This document shows positions 51,357 through 59,878 of a stretch of DNA of 64,000 nucleotides, one piece after another (position 1 is the first letter of the stretch; every line of letters begins with the position of its first letter). The notes under the pieces are model-generated. The model was not told where the DNA came from. It ran no database searches and saw only the letters and a program-made list of their open reading frames with translations. Made by a program: the position numbers and the translations under genes. Where the stretch lies: contig NZ_REFY01000006.1 of the NCBI RefSeq assembly GCF_003841485.1, positions 1 through 64,000 on the forward strand, read 5' to 3'. Source of the stretch: Natrarchaeobius halalkaliphilus (lineage in GTDB: Archaea > Halobacteriota > Halobacteria > Halobacteriales > Natrialbaceae).

Positions 51357-52085
51357 ATGGATTCGAGCGAGTTAAACGAGGACCGGATTGCATCTGTTCG
51401 GTTGCGAATTCGGATGACCGACGACTGGACGGAACGAATCGGCCAGTACGACATCCAGGGTGATATTTTCACAGCCAGTTTGCTCGACACTCACTACAAG
51501 GCACTGGTTCGCCTTTACGGCGAGGACGTTTCCAGGGGTATCGAGATTATCGAGAAAGCGCCCTACCACACGAGAGTCGACGTTATCGAGCAGTCACTGG
51601 ACACGACACACGAATACGCAGTCTTGTTCGTCACCGCCGTGTTCGATCGGATGACCCCTTTTCGCATTCTCACCGAAAACGAATATCTCCTTTTCGAGCC
51701 GTCGTTCTTTCGAAACGGGTGGTTCTACATCGATACGCTCATCTGGAATCGGGACCAGCTTTCCTTTCTCATCGACCGGTTAGACGAAATCTGTACGGTC
51801 TCCATCGAACAACTCATCTCCGGGGCCGAGTTTTCGACGCTTCCGAACCCATTGACGTGGTCGACACTGCTTTCGGAACTCACCGACCGCCAGATGGAAG
51901 TGCTGTCGTTGGCACTGGAGCGGGGGTACTATGACCAGCCAAGTCGGGTTTCACTCGAGGAACTCGGTACCGAGTTGGATCTGCACAAATCGACCGTCGG
52001 AGAACACCTCAATCGAGCCACGCAGACGCTGGCGACGTTCATTACCGAGAACTATTATCCAGCGACCTACGGAAAGGCGGATTAA
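51357..52085 (+). CDS. Bat-like HTH_10 transcriptional regulator of the betaine/lyase locus
   Basis: The 242-residue regulator has an N-terminal sensor-like region (residues 1-165) and a C-terminal HTH_10 domain (about 170-232, LTDRQMEVLSLALERGYYDQ, LEELGTELDLHKSTVGEHLN). The second helix of the HTH is well formed. Its relatives include the bacterio-opsin activator Bat, which binds a palindromic site just upstream of the TATA box. Three units downstream carry such a site (52.1, 54.0, 57.5 kb) with the same layout, so this gene is the obvious candidate activator. The 241 bases before it (51116-51356) lack that site; they share AGGTAATTCTC-GCG with the relic at 44177. Confidence 0.85.
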   Translation: MDSSELNEDRIASVRLRIRMTDDWTERIGQYDIQGDIFTASLLDTHYKALVRLYGEDVSRGIEIIEKAPYHTRVDVIEQSLDTTHEYAVLFVTAVFDRMTPFRILTENEYLLFEPSFFRNGWFYIDTLIWNRDQLSFLIDRLDEICTVSIEQLISGAEFSTLPNPLTWSTLLSELTDRQMEVLSLALERGYYDQPSRVSLEELGTELDLHKSTVGEHLNRATQTLATFITENYYPATYGKAD

Positions 52086-52416: not shown

Positions 52417-53913
52417 ATGATCGAACTAACTGGTACGCTTTCGACGCAGGATATCGTCGCTATCGCTCGCGGGAACGCCGCCGTTTCACTCCCGACCGAA
52501 GCGGTCGAGCGAATGGAACGGACGCGAGCGATCGTCGATGACGTCGTTCGACGGGACGACTATCACGTCTACGGCGTCAATGCGGGCGTTGGCGATCTCC
52601 ACGAGAAATCCATCTCACGAGATCGGATTCTCGAGATGCAAGAGAACATAATCGAGAGTTCGATTACCGGCGTCGAACCTCTCGCGTCGACGGAGATCAC
52701 TCGTGCCGCGATGGCGACGAAAGCGAATACGTTCGCAACGGGACGATCGGGGGCGAGACCCGAACTCGTCCAGAAGCTCTGTGCGATGTTGAACGAGGGC
52801 GTCCATCCTCGTCTCTATCTCGGCGGTTCGACCGACGATCTCACGGCGATCGCACACGTCGGATTGGTCCTCCTCGGGAAGGGAACAGCCGAACTCGACG
52901 GAGAGGTAGTTTCGGGAGGTGAAGCGCTCGAGCGAGCGGATATCGATCCCGTACAGCTAGCGCCCAAAGAAGCGATGTCGATAGTCAGTGGCACGTCCGT
53001 CATGACGGGGATGCTTTCGCTTTGCGTTCGCGATGTCGATCGGCTCGTTCGAACTGCTGACATCGTCAGTGCGCTCACATTCGAACTCATCGGTGACGCA
53101 CCGGAGACGTTCGCCAGCCGGGTTAGCGACGTCCGTCCACACGACGGTCACGCCACGACCGCGACCAACGTCCGGACGCTTCTGGACGGGAACGTCGACG
53201 GCTCGTCGCCGAAGATGGTCCAGGACCCGCTCTCGCTGCGGGTCATCCCACAGGTTCACGGGACGGTCCGCTCGCACCTCTCGTTCGCTCGAGAGACCGT
53301 CGACACCGAACTTCGGAGCGCTTCGGACAACCCGCTCGTCTTCCCGGACGGCAAGCTCTACTCCTGTGGTACGTTCAACGGACAGCCGATCTCGAGTGCG
53401 GCCGATTCGCTCCGGTCGGTCGTTATTAAACTCGGCTCGATCAGCGAGAGTCGGAACGAACGACTCCTGCAGAACAGACAGACGGATTATCCGTTCCTCG
53501 CCGCCGATCCCGGCGTCGAGTCTGGACTGATGATGACCCAGTACACTTCGAGCGGATTACTGGCGGAAACACTCGCAACGGACGGTGTAAGTACCTCTTC
53601 TGTTACCGTTTCCGGCGGGCAGGAAGACATCCATTCGATGGGGACGATCAGCGTTCGAGCGCTGGCCGACACCGTCGAGACGGTGGGTCGAATCCTGGCA
53701 ATCGAATTGCTGTGTGCGAATCGATATCACAATCTCGTGGGAGATATTTCGACGACTACCGCGCTCGAGGAACTACTCGAGTACGTGAACGCGATCGTCC
53801 AGGACCCGATCGAGGACGAACCCGCTTTCGATCACATCGCTTCACTGACGGAGGCGGTGCTCTCGGGTACGATCGTCGACGTGGTCGAATCGACCGGAGT
53901 CGACATCGACTGA
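52417..53913 (+). CDS. Histidine/phenylalanine ammonia-lyase family protein lacking the MIO triad
   Basis: The 498-residue protein aligns with HutH along its length: YGVNAGVGDL (residues 52-61), DLTAIAH (141-147), LLGKGTAELDGE, KEAMSIVSGTSVMTG (184-198), VQDPLSLRVIPQVHG (268-282), SDNPLVF (303-309), GTFNGQP (318-324) and GQEDIHSM (401-408). The Ala-Ser-Gly that cyclises to the MIO cofactor is Ser138-Thr139-Asp140, the Asn of the NGT motif is Ser191, and the Tyr of the QDPYSLR motif is Leu. It cannot make MIO, so ammonia elimination is unlikely; an activated leaving group such as trimethylamine would not need MIO (as I recall for ergothionase). The betaine-type transporter that follows supports this. 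Start ATG 52417; an in-frame TAA lies at 52369. Confidence 0.85.
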   Translation: MIELTGTLSTQDIVAIARGNAAVSLPTEAVERMERTRAIVDDVVRRDDYHVYGVNAGVGDLHEKSISRDRILEMQENIIESSITGVEPLASTEITRAAMATKANTFATGRSGARPELVQKLCAMLNEGVHPRLYLGGSTDDLTAIAHVGLVLLGKGTAELDGEVVSGGEALERADIDPVQLAPKEAMSIVSGTSVMTGMLSLCVRDVDRLVRTADIVSALTFELIGDAPETFASRVSDVRPHDGHATTATNVRTLLDGNVDGSSPKMVQDPLSLRVIPQVHGTVRSHLSFARETVDTELRSASDNPLVFPDGKLYSCGTFNGQPISSAADSLRSVVIKLGSISESRNERLLQNRQTDYPFLAADPGVESGLMMTQYTSSGLLAETLATDGVSTSSVTVSGGQEDIHSMGTISVRALADTVETVGRILAIELLCANRYHNLVGDISTTTALEELLEYVNAIVQDPIEDEPAFDHIASLTEAVLSGTIVDVVESTGVDID

Positions 53914-54085: not shown

Positions 54086-55009
54086 ATGCGAGATAGTATC
54101 ACGCGGAGGGGAGTACTCGCGGGAGCTGGTGCCGGTGCGATCGGGACGAGCCTTTCAGGGTGTCTCGGGATGCTCGACGACGATTCGATCGGCGTCTCCT
54201 CGAAGGAGTTTTCCGAACAGTTCATCCTGGCGAACATCAGTCAGGAGCTTCTCGAGGCGGACGGCCACGAGACCGAAGACAGCACCGGACTCGGTGGGAC
54301 GATGGCGAACTTCGAGGCTCTGCGAAACGAGGAGGTCGGCCTGTACTGGGAGTATACGGGGACGGCCTGGCTGAACATCCTCGAACACGAGGAACCGATC
54401 GACGACTCCGAGGAGCTCTACCAGCAGGTCGCAGCGGAGTACGAGGACGATTTCGGAATCGAGTGGCTCGAGCCGGCGCCGTTCAACAATACGTACGTCA
54501 TCGTTTCGAACGACGACTGGGTCGATGAGACGGGCGTCTCCGATCTAGAGGAGCTTTCGGAGCACGCTCAGGCGGGCAATACGGACTTTAGCGTCGGAAT
54601 GAACCCGGAGATCGAGGATCGCGAGGACGGCTGGGCTGGTCTTCCCGACACCTACGAGTTCGAAGAGAGTGCGGACGACATCGAGACGGTCAACATGGAT
54701 CTCGGTCTCGCGGTACAGGCAGTCGACGAAGGAGAGGTCGACGTCGCGTTCGCATTCGAAACCGACGCCGAGATCGAGCGCTACGATCTCGAGGTGATCG
54801 ACGATACGCGAAACCACTTCGTCATCTACAATCCCGCACCGAACGTTCGTCAGGACGTCCTCACCGAAGACATCAGGGAGTCGTTCAACTCGGTCACACC
54901 CGAACTCGACGCGGAAACGATTCGAGAGCTCAACGGTCGCGTTTCGATCGACGGAGATGACCCAGGGAACGTTGCTCACGATTTCCTCGAGACGAACGGT
55001 CACATCTGA
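54086..55009 (+). CDS. Quaternary-amine (OpuC/EgtU-type) ABC transporter substrate-binding lipoprotein
   Basis: The 307-residue protein has a Tat lipoprotein signal (SITRRGVLAGAG with Arg7-Arg8, lipobox LSGC with Cys26), so it is exported folded and lipid-anchored outside. The mature domain is OpuAC-like: KEFSEQFILANISQELLEAD, TGLGGTMANFEALRNEEVGL, YWEYTGTAW. Relatives bind glycine betaine, choline, carnitine or, for EgtU, ergothioneine through an aromatic cage. It is the first gene of a four-gene operon behind shared promoter copy 2. Confidence 0.92.
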   Translation: MRDSITRRGVLAGAGAGAIGTSLSGCLGMLDDDSIGVSSKEFSEQFILANISQELLEADGHETEDSTGLGGTMANFEALRNEEVGLYWEYTGTAWLNILEHEEPIDDSEELYQQVAAEYEDDFGIEWLEPAPFNNTYVIVSNDDWVDETGVSDLEELSEHAQAGNTDFSVGMNPEIEDREDGWAGLPDTYEFEESADDIETVNMDLGLAVQAVDEGEVDVAFAFETDAEIERYDLEVIDDTRNHFVIYNPAPNVRQDVLTEDIRESFNSVTPELDAETIRELNGRVSIDGDDPGNVAHDFLETNGHI

Positions 55010-55011
55010 CG

Positions 55012-55662
55012 ATGGTTACTCTCGTCGAAACGATCGACTGGATGAGCTCCAACAGCGACGTTCTGATTCGTCAATCGATCGAGCATCTGTCGATCGCGCT
55101 GACTGCGCTCGTTATCGGGATCGTCCTGTGGGTGCCGATCGGAATCCTCATCCGAAACAACGAGCGCGTTTCGCAGGTGCTCCTCGGCGCATCGGGCATC
55201 GTTCTGACGATCCCGAGCCTCGCGCTGTTACCGCTTCTTATTCCGTTCTTCGGGATCGGCGAGGCGCCGGCGATCGTCGCGCTGGTGTTGTACTCTGCGC
55301 TGCCGATCATGCGAAACACCGTCGTCGGAATCGCGGGAATCGACGACGCCATCCGCGAGGCTGGCCGCGGGCTCGGGCTAACCGATCGCCAACTGCTCGT
55401 TCGGGTACAGCTGCCGATGGCGTACCCAGTCATTATGGCCGGTATCCGACAGGCAACCGTTCTGTTGATCGCCATTACGACGGTGGCCGCCTACTTCGGC
55501 GCTGGCGGCCTTGGCCGCTCTATCTTTGCGGGCATCAGGCTTGCCAATGCCGATCAGATCATCGGTGCGACGATCGTCCTCTCCGCGCTAGCGATCGTTC
55601 TCGACTACGGTCTTGCGGCCACGGTCAAGCTCCTTCCCAATAGCGAGGTTATCGACACATGA
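55012..55662 (+). CDS. Quaternary-amine ABC transporter permease, first copy
   Basis: The 216-residue membrane protein has five or six helices and the OpuC permease EAA-like loop (GIDDAIREAGRGLGLTDRQL, LLVRVQLPMAYPVIMAGI). It forms one half of the transmembrane channel with the second permease. It starts two bases after the binding-protein stop and overlaps the ATPase start by four bases (ATGA), so the operon is tightly coupled. Confidence 0.92.
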   Translation: MVTLVETIDWMSSNSDVLIRQSIEHLSIALTALVIGIVLWVPIGILIRNNERVSQVLLGASGIVLTIPSLALLPLLIPFFGIGEAPAIVALVLYSALPIMRNTVVGIAGIDDAIREAGRGLGLTDRQLLVRVQLPMAYPVIMAGIRQATVLLIAITTVAAYFGAGGLGRSIFAGIRLANADQIIGATIVLSALAIVLDYGLAATVKLLPNSEVIDT

Positions 55663-56666
55663 GCCACGACACACCGAACCCGACCACGTCCAACTCGATT
55701 ACCTTCGACGGCGTAACGAAAATATACAACGACGGAACGGAGGCGGTATCCGACGTCTCGTTTTCCGTCCCGAACGGGGAGACCGCCACGCTCGTCGGTC
55801 CATCCGGCTGTGGAAAAACGACCACGATGAAGATGGTCAACGCGCTCGTCGAGCCGACGTCGGGGGAGGTCTCCGTCGCCGGGACGTCACTTACCGAGTA
55901 CGATCCGATCGAGCTCCGTCGGAAAGTCGGCTACGTCATCCAGGATATCGGACTGTTCAAACACATGACGATCGAGGAGAACGTCGGTATCGTCCCCGAC
56001 ATCATCGGCTGGGACGACGACCGCATCGAAACCCGCGTCACCGAGTTGCTCGAGCTCGTGCGCCTGGGGGACGAGGTTCGGACGAAATACCCACCGGAAC
56101 TGTCGGGCGGCCAGCAACAGCGAGTTGGCGTCGCGCGGGCACTGGCCGCGGAACCCGACGTGATGCTGATGGACGAACCGTTCGGTGCGTTGGATCCGAT
56201 CACGCGCGAACAGCTCCAGGACGAGTTCCGTCGCATTCAGGAGGGACTCGACGTGACCATCGTCTTCGTCACTCACGATATCGATGAGGCACTGAAGATG
56301 GGCGATAGGGTCGCTGTGATGCGAGACGGCGAACTGATCCAGTACGATCCACCTGCGGAACTGCTCCGGAACCCGAACGACGCCTTCGTCGAGTCGTTCC
56401 TCGGAGAAGACAGACAGTTGGCACAGCTACAGACCGTCTTCGTCCGGGACGTCATGGGTCCTGCAGACGAGGCACCGACCGCCGATCACGTCCCGACGCT
56501 CTCGCCGGACGATACGCTCCGACTGGCGGTTCAGGCGTGGCTTCGTAGCGACACCGACGCGGTTCCGGTCGTCGAATCGGATGCCGTCGTCGGATCGATC
56601 ACCGAAACGCACCTCCGACACGTCTTCGAGGAGTCTTCACGCCCCATCGAGGAAAACCATGTCTGA
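55659..56666 (+). CDS. Quaternary-amine ABC transporter ATPase with CBS domains
   Basis: The 335-residue ATPase has Walker A GPSGCGKTT (about residues 47-55), the Q loop IQDIGLFKHMT, signature LSGGQQQRVGVARA, Walker B VMLMDEPFG and the switch His in VTHDIDEA. Residues about 260-330 form a CBS-type region (PTLSPDDTLRLAVQAWLRSD, VVGSITETHLRHV), which in OpuA/OpuC gates transport by ionic strength. It overlaps both neighbours by a few bases. Confidence 0.94.
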   Translation: MSHDTPNPTTSNSITFDGVTKIYNDGTEAVSDVSFSVPNGETATLVGPSGCGKTTTMKMVNALVEPTSGEVSVAGTSLTEYDPIELRRKVGYVIQDIGLFKHMTIEENVGIVPDIIGWDDDRIETRVTELLELVRLGDEVRTKYPPELSGGQQQRVGVARALAAEPDVMLMDEPFGALDPITREQLQDEFRRIQEGLDVTIVFVTHDIDEALKMGDRVAVMRDGELIQYDPPAELLRNPNDAFVESFLGEDRQLAQLQTVFVRDVMGPADEAPTADHVPTLSPDDTLRLAVQAWLRSDTDAVPVVESDAVVGSITETHLRHVFEESSRPIEENHV

Positions 56667-57378
56667 GACGGCCGTAAGCGCGTTGTTGCAGGCGCTGTCG
56701 ATTCCGCTGGTACTGACCGGTTGGATCGAATACATCCTCGAGAATCCGGGCTCGTTCGCGACGATGCTCCGCGAGCACCTGCAGATGGTCGTCATCGGCG
56801 TCACGGCCGCGATTGCCGTTGCGGTGCCGGCCGGGATCGCAGCCACGCGCCATCAGGCCGTCGGGACGGCGGTGATGAACATGGGTGCGATCGCACAGAC
56901 CGTTCCTCCGCTGGGCGTTATCGCGCTCACCTTCGCGTTTCTCGGCGTCGGACCGCGGCCGGCCATACTCGCCCTGTTTCTGTACGGGCTGTTACCGATC
57001 TTGAAAAACACGACTGCGGGGATACGAAACGTGGAGGCCGCACAGGTTGAGGCCGGTCGAGGAATGGGAATGACGCGCCTCCAACGTCTGTGGCGGATCG
57101 AACTGCCGCTTGCGCTTCCGGTCATCATCGCCGGCATTCGCACCACTATCGTCCTGAGCGTCGGTATCGCCTATCTCGGCGCGTTCATCGGGGCGGGTGG
57201 GCTCGGCCAGTGGATCATCCTCGGCCAGCAGCGCTACGCGAACGAAATCCTGTTGGCCGGTGCCATTCCCGGCGCCGTCCTCGTGATCGTCCTCGATCAG
57301 ACGTTCGGCTGGCTCGGCGCGCGAATCAGTCCGGTAGAGTCCTCGACGGACGACCACACTCAGTCGACCGTCGCGTAA
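56659..57378 (+). CDS. Quaternary-amine ABC transporter permease, second copy
   Basis: The 239-residue permease resembles the first copy in its EAA-like loop (NVEAAQVEAGRGMGMTRLQR, LPLALPVIIAGIRTT) and has an N-terminal extension. OpuC-type systems use two different permeases on either side of the ATPase gene, as here. Its ATG overlaps the ATPase stop. It ends 135 bases before the Rieske gene; shared promoter copy 3 lies in that gap. Confidence 0.92.
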   Translation: MSETAVSALLQALSIPLVLTGWIEYILENPGSFATMLREHLQMVVIGVTAAIAVAVPAGIAATRHQAVGTAVMNMGAIAQTVPPLGVIALTFAFLGVGPRPAILALFLYGLLPILKNTTAGIRNVEAAQVEAGRGMGMTRLQRLWRIELPLALPVIIAGIRTTIVLSVGIAYLGAFIGAGGLGQWIILGQQRYANEILLAGAIPGAVLVIVLDQTFGWLGARISPVESSTDDHTQSTVA

Positions 57379-57455
57379 GGCCTTCGATCGAACCGTTCGG
57401 TTTTCGAGCGTTTCAGTGTCCGGACCCGGTCTCGTCCGATCACGATGGTTTGTAC

Positions 57456-57490
57456 ACCCCTACACGTAGGGGGCAATCCTTACTCGAAAT
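57456..57490 (+). promoter_or_regulatory. Shared promoter element, copy 3, before the Rieske oxygenase operon
   Basis: ACCCCTACACGTAGGGG (57456-57472) is a near-perfect palindrome, followed by GCAATCCTTACTCGA to 57487. The TTACT box (57480-57484) lies 30-34 bases before ATG 57514. The layout (symmetric site, then TATA-like box, then leaderless ATG) resembles the UAS-TATA layout that Bat uses at the bop gene. Confidence 0.72.
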
Positions 57491-57513
57491 CGACGGCAAC
57501 CATCGAACAAATT

Positions 57514-58893
57514 ATGGCTGAGAGTACCACGCAATCATCTATACCTCGAGACGTCCGCGACGTCGTCGAGGACGTCGGCAGGGTAACGGAAACCGGTGAG
57601 ATCCCGTCTCGAATACACAACGACCGGGACATTCACGAAGCGGAACTCGAGAGAGTGATCGGTGAAACGTGGGTGTTCGTCGGTCACGTTTCCGAGATCC
57701 CGGAACCGGGCGACTACGCGAAGCGATACATCGGTGACAGCCCCTTCATCTTCGTCCGCGACGAGACCGGTGAGATTCGGGTTCTCTTCGATTCGTGTCA
57801 ACACCGTGGAACGACCGTCGTCCGGGCCGAACAGGGCAACACCAGTCACTTCCGTTGTCCCTACCACAACTGGACGTACAAGAACACCGGCGAGCTGGTC
57901 GGCGTTCCGTACAAAGACCAGTGTTACCAGGAACTCGACATGTGCGAACACGCCCTCGAGTCCGCACCGCAAGTCGACAGCTACCGCGGGCTCGTCTTCG
58001 CGACCATCTCGGCGGACGCCCCGCCGCTTTCGGAGTACCTCGGAGATTTCACCTGGTATCTGGATCTCAACCTCGGATTCCTCGAGGAGGGTTTCGAGGT
58101 CGTCGGTGAGCCGATCAGGTGGGAGATCGACACGAACTGGAAGATCGGTGCCGACAACTTCACCGGCGATTCCTACCACACGCTCGCCACCCACAAGTCG
58201 GCGATGGATCTCGACATCTTTCCGCCGGAACTGTCCGCCACCGGATCCGACCGCGCACCGGCGGACGTGACGAACTGTAGCGGCCACTCGTGTATGCTCG
58301 CGTACCTGGAAGACGGCACGCTCACCGGCGGATATCCGTCGGAGGTCTTTTCGGTCGACGGGCTGTCGTCCGATCAGTTCGAGATCGCCAGAGGACTCGT
58401 CTCGAGCGTCGGAACGGTCTTTCCGAACCTCTCGTTCCTGCAAATGAATCTGAACGCCGATCCGGACGACCGAGAGGTGACCGCCTTTCTCAACCTCCGG
58501 AAGTGGCAACCGATCGGACCGAAAACGACCCAGCTGTGGAACTGGATACTGGTTCCGAAAACCGCCTCCGAGGAGTTCAAACAGCGAGCCTACGATACCG
58601 GGATTGCAACGTTCAGCGTCTCCGGAAGCTTCGAGGTGGACGATTTCGCGGTGTGGGACGGCATCGCCGAAGCGGCCGGAAGCACGTACGTCACGAAGCA
58701 CCGCTCGACGTCGAACTTCCAGATGGGAATCGAGGGGATGGGCGAAGCGACGAACATCTCGGAGGAGTGGCCCGGCCCTGGCGAAGTGTACGATACGAAC
58801 CTCGAGGACGGGACGATGCGGACGTTTTACCGGAGCTGGTACCGGGCGATGACCGGATCACGAATCGACCCCGACCGGGAGGACGATCGATGA
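57514..58893 (+). CDS. Rieske aromatic-ring-hydroxylating oxygenase, large (alpha) subunit
   Basis: The 459-residue protein has the Rieske [2Fe-2S] ligands Cys95-x-His97 (DSCQHRG) and Cys115-x2-His118 (CPYHNW), and the mononuclear iron site DNFTGDSYHTLATH with the bridging Asp219 and His222/His227; the third ligand is probably the Asp in FAVWDG. It inserts O2 into an aromatic ring or N-demethylates, using electrons from a ferredoxin. The ATG at 57514 is chosen over an upstream frame that would read through the shared promoter. It overlaps the beta subunit by four bases. No reductase or ferredoxin gene is adjacent. Confidence 0.93.
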   Translation: MAESTTQSSIPRDVRDVVEDVGRVTETGEIPSRIHNDRDIHEAELERVIGETWVFVGHVSEIPEPGDYAKRYIGDSPFIFVRDETGEIRVLFDSCQHRGTTVVRAEQGNTSHFRCPYHNWTYKNTGELVGVPYKDQCYQELDMCEHALESAPQVDSYRGLVFATISADAPPLSEYLGDFTWYLDLNLGFLEEGFEVVGEPIRWEIDTNWKIGADNFTGDSYHTLATHKSAMDLDIFPPELSATGSDRAPADVTNCSGHSCMLAYLEDGTLTGGYPSEVFSVDGLSSDQFEIARGLVSSVGTVFPNLSFLQMNLNADPDDREVTAFLNLRKWQPIGPKTTQLWNWILVPKTASEEFKQRAYDTGIATFSVSGSFEVDDFAVWDGIAEAAGSTYVTKHRSTSNFQMGIEGMGEATNISEEWPGPGEVYDTNLEDGTMRTFYRSWYRAMTGSRIDPDREDDR

Positions 58894-59396
58894 ACGACGA
58901 CCTCGTTCTCACGCTGGAGTGTCGGCAGTTCCTGGTGAACGAGGCCGAACTCCTGGACGATCAGCGTCTCCACGAGTGGCTCGACCTCCTGACGGACGAT
59001 GTCGAGTACCGCGTCCCCCGTCGAGTGATGAGAGAACGTGGCGCGGAGGCCGCGGAGTTCAGCGACGAAGGATTCCTCTTTCGCGACGATAAGGGGACGT
59101 TACGGACCAGAGTGGAACGGTACGACAAGGAGTACGCCTGGGCGGAAAATCCACCGTCACGAACGCGGCGAATCGTCGGCAACGTGCGGGTGGTCGAGCA
59201 AACGGCCGACGACGTGACCGTCAAGAGCAATAGTATCGTCTATCGGAGCCAGGGCGACGAAAGCGATCACGATCTCATCGCCGGCGAGCGAGTGGACGTT
59301 CTCCGTCGGGCCGACGAGGGGTTTCGATTGGCACGCCGAACCGTTCACCTGGATCAGACGGTACTCGCGACCAGAAACCTCTCTATCTTTTTGTAA
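58890..59396 (+). CDS. Rieske aromatic-ring-hydroxylating oxygenase, small (beta) subunit
   Basis: The 168-residue protein shows the SnoaL-like beta-subunit pattern: CRQFLVNEAELLDDQRLHEW, LDLLTDDVEYRVPRRV, PPSRTRRIVGNVRVVE and RRTVHLDQTVLATRNLSIFL. A beta subunit points to true ring-hydroxylating (alpha3beta3) oxygenases rather than to carnitine or glycine-betaine monooxygenases, which lack it. Coupled to the alpha gene by ATGA overlap. Confidence 0.9.
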   Translation: MNDDLVLTLECRQFLVNEAELLDDQRLHEWLDLLTDDVEYRVPRRVMRERGAEAAEFSDEGFLFRDDKGTLRTRVERYDKEYAWAENPPSRTRRIVGNVRVVEQTADDVTVKSNSIVYRSQGDESDHDLIAGERVDVLRRADEGFRLARRTVHLDQTVLATRNLSIFL

Positions 59397-59398
59397 CC

Positions 59399-59878
59399 AT
59401 GACTACTCACTCGACACACGGTTCCGTAACCGCGGAGCCACTCGTGCGGCTAACTGAACGCGGTATCAGTATCTCCGTTCGTCGAATCGAGACGCCCAGA
59501 GGGGAACGCCTCGAGTTCGACGTGGAGGACACCGATACGGCGATCCGGTTGGATGCGATCGCACTCGAGTGTCTCACGTGGCAATCCGAGGATTCGTTTC
59601 TCGAGTCCGTTCCCGTGGAAGCCCGAACGGCTCCGTCCGACGACTGCGTCGTCGAACGCGGCCAGCCAGCGGGTTCGCGAACCGAGCTTACCCGAATTAC
59701 GAACGAATTCTGCCAGATACGCGTCAGTCGCCTCGTCACCGACGAACGCGAGTGGCTCGAGATCGAGGCCCCAAAACTCGGAGCCGCGATCGCGCTGAAC
59801 GCCGGTGCGGTTCGTTCTGTGACCCACCTCGACCAGCGGGCGTTTACGGCGCTTCTGTCCGATCGTCTCAATCGGTGA
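59399..59878 (+). CDS. Unknown protein with an internal duplication, last gene of the oxygenase operon
   Basis: The 159-residue protein starts two bases after the beta-subunit stop. Two halves share a pattern: ISISVRRIETPRGERLEF then AIRLDAIALECLTW (residues about 19-60), and CQIRVSRLVTDEREWLEIEA then AIALNAGAVRSVTH (about 103-145). Each looks like a small all-beta unit. No cysteine pair or metal site is evident, so it is not a ferredoxin. The role is unknown; position suggests an accessory to the Rieske oxygenase. Confidence 0.7.
   Translation: MTTHSTHGSVTAEPLVRLTERGISISVRRIETPRGERLEFDVEDTDTAIRLDAIALECLTWQSEDSFLESVPVEARTAPSDDCVVERGQPAGSRTELTRITNEFCQIRVSRLVTDEREWLEIEAPKLGAAIALNAGAVRSVTHLDQRAFTALLSDRLNR

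Follow-up and report, generated by a model that had tools for sequence, protein, structure and literature searches.

The gene at positions 52417..53913 of the window (the whole stretch of 64,000 nucleotides of Natrarchaeobius halalkaliphilus DNA analysed here) encodes a lyase of the HutH/PAL family without the MIO group, which probably splits trimethylamine from an imported aromatic amino-acid betaine. We infer this reaction and substrate class from the conserved deletion of the MIO triad, the likeness to ergothionase, the linkage to an importer, the neighbouring genes and the selection acting on the gene.

Textbooks define the aromatic amino acid lyase superfamily by MIO. In HutH, this electrophile attaches to the free amine of the substrate and thereby enables the amine to leave. 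A trimethylammonium group lacks the lone pair needed for attachment to MIO, and leaves readily on its own. The only well-known enzyme that removes trimethylamine without MIO is, to our knowledge, bacterial ergothionase. PMC13405746, which cites Maurer et al. 2019, describes ergothionase as a trimethylamine lyase working without MIO.

Identity, fold and selection of the lyase

The gene and its main active-site features are the following:

52417..53913, + strand: MIO-less HutH/PAL-family lyase of 498 aa (PF00221, 431 bits), member of a clade of 13
52822..52842, + strand: shortened MIO loop G-G-S-T-D-D-L (residues 136-142), in the alignments three residues shorter than HutH G-S-L-G-A-S-G-D-L
52987..52995, + strand: S191-G192-T193, aligned with HutH N195-G-T
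53221..53241, + strand: Q269-D-P-L272-S-L-R275, with Leu at Y280, Q277 and R283 kept, and QDPLS also found in ergothionase
53623..53625, + strand: Glu403, aligned with HAL E414 (E411 in 6s7j numbering)

In the profile search, PF00221 matched the protein end to end (residues 8-454), and the protein remained under all the curated NCBIfam cut-offs, with hutH scores of 392 (cut-off 539) and 404.5 (cut-off 524 bits). The sub-cut-off score and the changed residues rule out a plain HutH. A separate canonical HutH is encoded elsewhere in the genome, with a urocanase nearby. The AlphaFold2 monomer is confidently predicted to adopt a HAL-type fold (mean pLDDT 86.9, pTM 0.91), with low confidence in the lid loop 53-58 and in the loop 260-265, and in the PDB it matches tyrosine aminomutase, TAL, HAL and ergothionase (TM ~0.9). 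By both profile and fold, the protein belongs to the aromatic amino acid lyase superfamily (PF00221). Conversely, it falls outside the MIO-dependent ammonia-lyases and aminomutases (HAL, PAL, TAL, PAM): the triad, N195 and Y280 are all gone. This agrees with the initial annotation, which had proposed that the MIO chemistry was lost while the fold was retained, and the family motifs that it listed (YGVN, SDNPL, GQEDIHSM) are present.

The dN/dS between the lyase and its orthologue in a genome of the same genus (G363) is 0.19, and the neighbouring genes compared between the same two genomes range from 0.05 to 0.40. The lyase is under purifying selection.

Deletion of the MIO triad and linked residue changes

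Codons 52828-52836 (TCG ACC GAC) do encode Ser138-Thr139-Asp140, as initially annotated, but the accompanying claim that these residues replace A-S-G is not borne out by the alignment. G137-S138 align with the Gly-Ser ahead of the MIO triad, invariant in the aligned HutH, and between this pair and the next D-L there are five residues in HutH (LGASG) and two in the window lyase (TD). Because the GS-to-DL segment is three residues shorter than in HutH, the triad is, as the alignment reads, deleted rather than swapped for S-T-D. The S138 position varies among the haloarchaeal MIO-less proteins described below, with Asn in G147, G312, G383, G416 and G417. A shifted ASG-like triad, set beforehand as an outcome contrary to MIO loss, was scanned for in the window protein: X-Ser-Gly occurs only at 110, 165, 190, 368, 378, 398 and 482, none near the loop.

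The two other changes reported at the outset are exact in the alignment: the asparagine of NGT (N195) is Ser191, and the tyrosine of QDPYSLR (Y280) is Leu272. N195 and Y280 are the residues generally credited with acting on MIO and the amine, Y280 on the amine in HAL. Other HutH residues are kept, namely Y53 (Y52 in the window numbering), Q277 (Q269), R283 (R275), F329 (F320) and E414 (E403), as well as the equivalent of M382, a HAL-type pocket residue. H83 is changed to Ser, and to Thr in G363. The position of K383 (6s7j numbering), the catalytic lysine in the active site of ergothionase, is occupied by Tyr376; Tyr is found there in 13/13 haloarchaeal members, as in HutH, and the lysine is likewise missing from some bacterial MIO-less members.

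Haloarchaeal MIO-less lyases form a single clade

The search of haloarchaeal genomes identified 12 orthologues besides the window protein, for a total of 13 MIO-less proteins. Identity to the window lyase is 78% in G363, 52% in Haladaptatus pallidirubidus (G194), 50% in G082 and G102, 47% in G423, and 41-43% in G413, G416, G417, G147, G312, G383 and Halorubellus salinus (G282). The G102 lyase (L037:8449-10047) carries an insertion of ~35 residues rich in Arg, Ser, Asp and Glu after the GEVER segment. In all 13, the loop is shortened by three residues, Y280 is replaced by Leu and N195 by Ser or Asp, and F329 is followed by Asn, while Y53, Q277, R283, F329 and E414 are kept; Tyr at Y280 and Asn at N195 are found in 57/57 scorable ASG-type rows. 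The deletion and the linked residue changes are not due to chance. The view that this is not random decay is upheld by an ORF without stops in 13 species and by the dN/dS reported above, both of which contradict a pseudogene in close relatives.

The phylogenetic trees were built without the columns of the MIO loop, SGT and QDPLS. All haloarchaeal MIO-less proteins group in one clade (100/100), with the deletion common to its 13 members; whether a non-ASG triad defines a clade was a check proposed in the initial annotation. This clade is sister of haloarchaeal HutH (97/96). A separate clade (100/99) holds ergothionase 6s7j and its bacterial relatives, and the window lyase is placed apart from it in all trees. 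A joint MIO-less clade was not rejected by the AU test (p=0.495 with the quick tree, p=0.32 with the careful tree), and these values fall short of proving an independent MIO loss. The loop indels differ: three residues were lost in the haloarchaeal clade, one in ergothionase and its relatives. On the sequence evidence, we favour a loss of MIO in haloarchaea independent of that of bacterial ergothionase. A genome-wide scan for remoter MIO-less relatives returned almost only HutH.

Comparison with ergothionase and HutH

The initial annotation listed ergothionases for comparison and proposed no function. Ergothionase (ergothioneine trimethylamine-lyase; PDB 6s7j, Treponema denticola; Burkholderia sp. 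HME13) and the window lyase have in common the PF00221 fold (TM 0.91), the absence of MIO, QDPLS in place of QDxYS, Ser at N195, Glu at E414/E411, the arginine and the lid tyrosine. More in general, the bacterial MIO-less family including 6s7j shows the Y280 to L change (QDPLS) and, mostly, N195 to S; the combination typical of ergothionase (MIO absent, Y280 to L, E411 kept) is found in the window lyase. The differences are an identity of ~24%, a loop three rather than one residue shorter than in HutH, Tyr at K383, F-N rather than F-E/D after F329, the grouping with haloarchaeal HutH in the tree, and other downstream genes. HutH (haloarchaeal sequences; 7tqr, 1b8f) is the nearest in the tree, with ~36-43% identity, and shares Y53, Q277, R283, F329, M382 and E414 with the window lyase. 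Unlike HutH, the latter has no A-S-G, and shows N195 to S, Y280 to L, H83 to S (T in G363) and H to N after F329.

The haloarchaeal MIO-less lyase is probably a variant of the ergothionase-like kind that arose independently. Activity like that of ergothionase is predicted for the window protein, with K383 gone and membership of the ergothionase clade unsupported.

The lyase is linked to a quaternary-amine importer

Downstream of the lyase, the window encodes a four-gene ABC importer:

54086..55009, + strand: OpuC/ProX-type quaternary-amine substrate-binding lipoprotein (PF04069, 171 bits)
55012..55662, + strand: ABC permease 1, OpuB/ProW type (profile matches)
55659..56666, + strand: ABC ATPase of the ProV family with a CBS domain (TIGR01186, 313 bits)
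56581..57378, + strand: ABC permease 2 (profile matches)

An importer of this OpuC/ProX type lies at most about 10 kb from the lyase in 9/13 haloarchaeal MIO-less loci, compared to 0/26 loci of haloarchaeal HutH (Fisher p = 3e-6), and none of the 79 HutH loci sampled across many phyla has it nearby. A related cassette, a glycine-betaine-type ABC importer, also flanks three rhizobial MIO-less lyases (L126, L195, L198). The four orthologues without the importer nearby, two of which (G312 and G383) have no informative neighbours, count against a betaine substrate.

The window binding protein has Y/Y/F/Y at the aromatic-box positions of A. fulgidus ProX and keeps K13, T66 and R149, i.e. both the aromatic box and the Lys/Thr/Arg residues for the carboxylate that characterise AfProX-type proteins. 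The subcluster F-III-type aromatic box and the carboxylate residues are shared with the EgtU, AfProX and OpuC importers. The determinants specific to EgtU, F293 (the Y-to-F switch) and G244, are missing from the window protein, which has Tyr and Phe there and is nearer to AfProX.

Other neighbouring genes and two kinds of locus

Upstream of the lyase and downstream of the importer genes, the window contains:

51357..52085, + strand: HTH_10 regulator (bacterio-opsin-activator type), upstream of the lyase or importer in six genomes including that of the window
57445..58893, + strand: Rieske ring-hydroxylating dioxygenase alpha subunit, HcaE-like (cinnamate/3-phenylpropionate type), below the equivalog cut-off (228 vs 830)
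58890..59396, + strand: dioxygenase beta subunit, HcaF-like (NF007479, 172.5 bits, cut-off 145)
59399..59878, + strand: orf8, small conserved protein without a Pfam or NCBIfam match

The gene order is thus lyase, importer genes, HcaE-like, HcaF-like and orf8. Two kinds of locus can be distinguished. The first (the window, G363, G194, G082, G102 and G423) includes the HTH_10 regulator, the importer and the lyase, and each of these genomes has only one urocanase; hutU lies near the lyase in both G082 and G102, accompanied by hutG in G082. In the second kind (G147, G282, G413, G416 and G417), a second, divergent urocanase is found near the lyase, and these loci (L035, L036, L166, L169 and L170) also hold a hydantoinase-like amidohydrolase and a D-aminoacylase-like protein. 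In an alignment of four of the five, the second urocanases have changed in concert at positions that are fixed elsewhere, e.g. Y142 to M, Q144 to N and M145 to Y, and they score under the thiourocanate-hydratase cut-offs. From its gene content, the second kind of locus is a candidate for the catabolism of ergothioneine or a related ring-modified histidine betaine. The hutU-type and second-urocanase neighbours point to arylacrylate (urocanate-type) products. Genes of the MttB family (trimethylamine methyltransferase-like) number 11 in G417 and 2 in G147, with one at the lyase locus in each.

Among the MIO-less loci, HcaE, HcaF and orf8 are found in the window and G363 alone. The cinnamate/3-phenylpropionate dioxygenase HcaEF is the best curated match of both window subunits, although the alpha subunit stays under its cut-off and HcaB, HcaC and HcaD were not seen nearby. 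Homologues of HcaE, HcaF and orf8 (75%, 67% and 43% identical) also lie beside a HutH-like lyase that keeps ASG, at L038:9571-13562 (G267) and L039:2564-6555 (G270), and orf8 is kept alongside HcaE in G267, G270, G069, G153 and G284, coming after the HcaEF-like genes in those haloarchaea examined that have close HcaE relatives. The arrangement in G267 and G270 links the ring dioxygenase to products of the HutH/PAL family. The ASG lyases of these two genomes have Asn at the H83 position. Since H83 is changed both here and in the window and G363 (Ser, Thr), there is a hint that lyases tied to the HcaEF-like dioxygenase may recognise a different ring. A PAL-like reading drawn from the HcaEF neighbour alone is weakened, because the MIO lyase of G267 scores as HutH (603 vs 539) and keeps E414.

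Proposed reaction and alternative explanations

In the proposed reaction, the betaine would enter via the adjacent OpuC/ProX-type ABC transporter, and the lyase would catalyse the beta-elimination of an N-alpha-trimethylated aromatic (aryl or imidazolyl) amino acid into trimethylamine and an arylacrylate. The arylacrylate may then pass to the neighbouring HcaEF-like ring dioxygenase in the window lineage, and may go to urocanase in other haloarchaea. The loss of MIO, N195 and Y280, with Y52 (lid), R275 (carboxylate), Q269, F320 and E403 kept, would fit a betaine substrate, if these residues have the roles assigned to them by homology. Hercynine or another aryl betaine is a more likely substrate than ergothioneine. 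Hercynine would suit G082 and G102, where the lyase has hutU nearby; another aryl betaine is suggested for the window lineage because H83 is changed and a ring dioxygenase adjoins. Some observations count against a betaine lyase: the Tyr in place of the K383 lysine, which implies that the chemistry is not exactly copied from ergothionase; no dehydrogenase, ferredoxin or reductase for an HcaEF pathway seen in the operon; and no MttB-type trimethylamine methyltransferase in the window genome.

We consider it unlikely that the protein is a true ergothionase, converting ergothioneine into thiourocanate and trimethylamine. The fold, the QDPLS change and E411 are the same, the ergothioneine transporter EgtU belongs to the importer family, and the second urocanase and the hydantoinase-like enzyme of related loci resemble the bacterial ergothioneine pathway (thiourocanate hydratase, hydantoin-5-propionate hydrolase). 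However, both a second urocanase and a hydantoinase are missing from the window locus, and only one urocanase is encoded in the genome; the binding protein carries Tyr and Phe in place of the EgtU affinity determinants F293 and G244; and the relatives' second urocanases remain under the thiourocanate-hydratase cut-offs. A direct assignment as ergothionase was discarded on the absence of K383, the unsupported clade membership (the lyase falls outside that clade in the tree) and an importer without the EgtU determinants. Quite improbable is an ordinary aromatic or related amino acid as substrate, with a MIO-independent elimination of ammonia or another leaving group and the importer there incidentally. 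MIO-independent side reactions of the fold are conceivable and M382 and E414, pocket residues of the HAL type, are retained, but the importer linkage is far over the background and is repeated in rhizobia, and Y280, to which amine handling is assigned in HAL, is gone in every member.

The loss of the cofactor and of two catalytic residues could also indicate a catalytically dead paralogue, whose fold is kept for binding or regulation. This pseudoenzyme is highly improbable: five catalytic-site residues are invariant in 13/13 orthologues, the gene is under purifying selection and kept in catabolic and transport clusters, and ergothionase is an example of an enzyme of this fold that is active without MIO. 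A decaying HutH copy, for which we found nothing beyond the missing triad, is hardly conceivable for a full-length gene without stops in a genome that has a separate intact HutH; the same deletion in 13 intact ORFs, together with the dN/dS of 0.19, rules out a pseudogene.

Returning to the betaine lyase, a wider hypothesis is that haloarchaea have a whole family of MIO-free betaine lyases, with its own origin from HutH independent of ergothionase, acting on a range of aromatic amino-acid betaines through import and trimethylamine elimination; the window lineage would have a new substrate, and the dedicated ring dioxygenase would oxidise the arylacrylate formed from it. We advance it tentatively, holding it to be slightly more doubtful than probable.

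Context and other MIO-less lyases

The literature search found no hercynine or hypaphorine lyase and no haloarchaeal HutH associated with betaine, and no archaeal case appeared in the ergothionase literature searched. If the proposed activity is true, archaeal trimethylamine lyases of the HutH/PAL fold would be added to this literature, and aromatic betaines would be a source of trimethylamine in hypersaline habitats, where trimethylamine feeds methanogens. The catalytic group would have been lost in step with the switch to quaternary-amine import, suggesting a general rule in which a quaternary leaving group makes MIO dispensable. If MIO loss was independent, ergothionase and the haloarchaeal clade would represent a natural repeat experiment in cofactor loss. 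Automatic annotation names MIO-less proteins histidine or aromatic ammonia-lyases, and the short loop combined with QDPLS suggests a simple sequence test to recognise them.

MIO-less lyases are also found on bacterial plasmids. Those of the Rhizobium plasmids (L126, L195 and L198) carry GSIGAAD and QDPLS and, where annotated, are called HutH; an ornithine cyclodeaminase and HutC are also present at L126 and L198. On a Paracoccus saliphilus plasmid, a MIO-less lyase (L192:5911-7599) directly follows a hutI-hutH-hutG-hutU cluster, and is a candidate hercynine lyase feeding urocanate to HutU. An N-terminally truncated one lies on a Paracoccus seriniphilus plasmid (L122:7992-9095), near a gene above the S-methyl-thiourocanate hydratase cut-off, a HutI-like amidohydrolase and an arginase-family protein. 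In Klebsiella pneumoniae, a HutH-family "aromatic amino acid ammonia-lyase" occurs on many plasmids (197 Klebsiella records).
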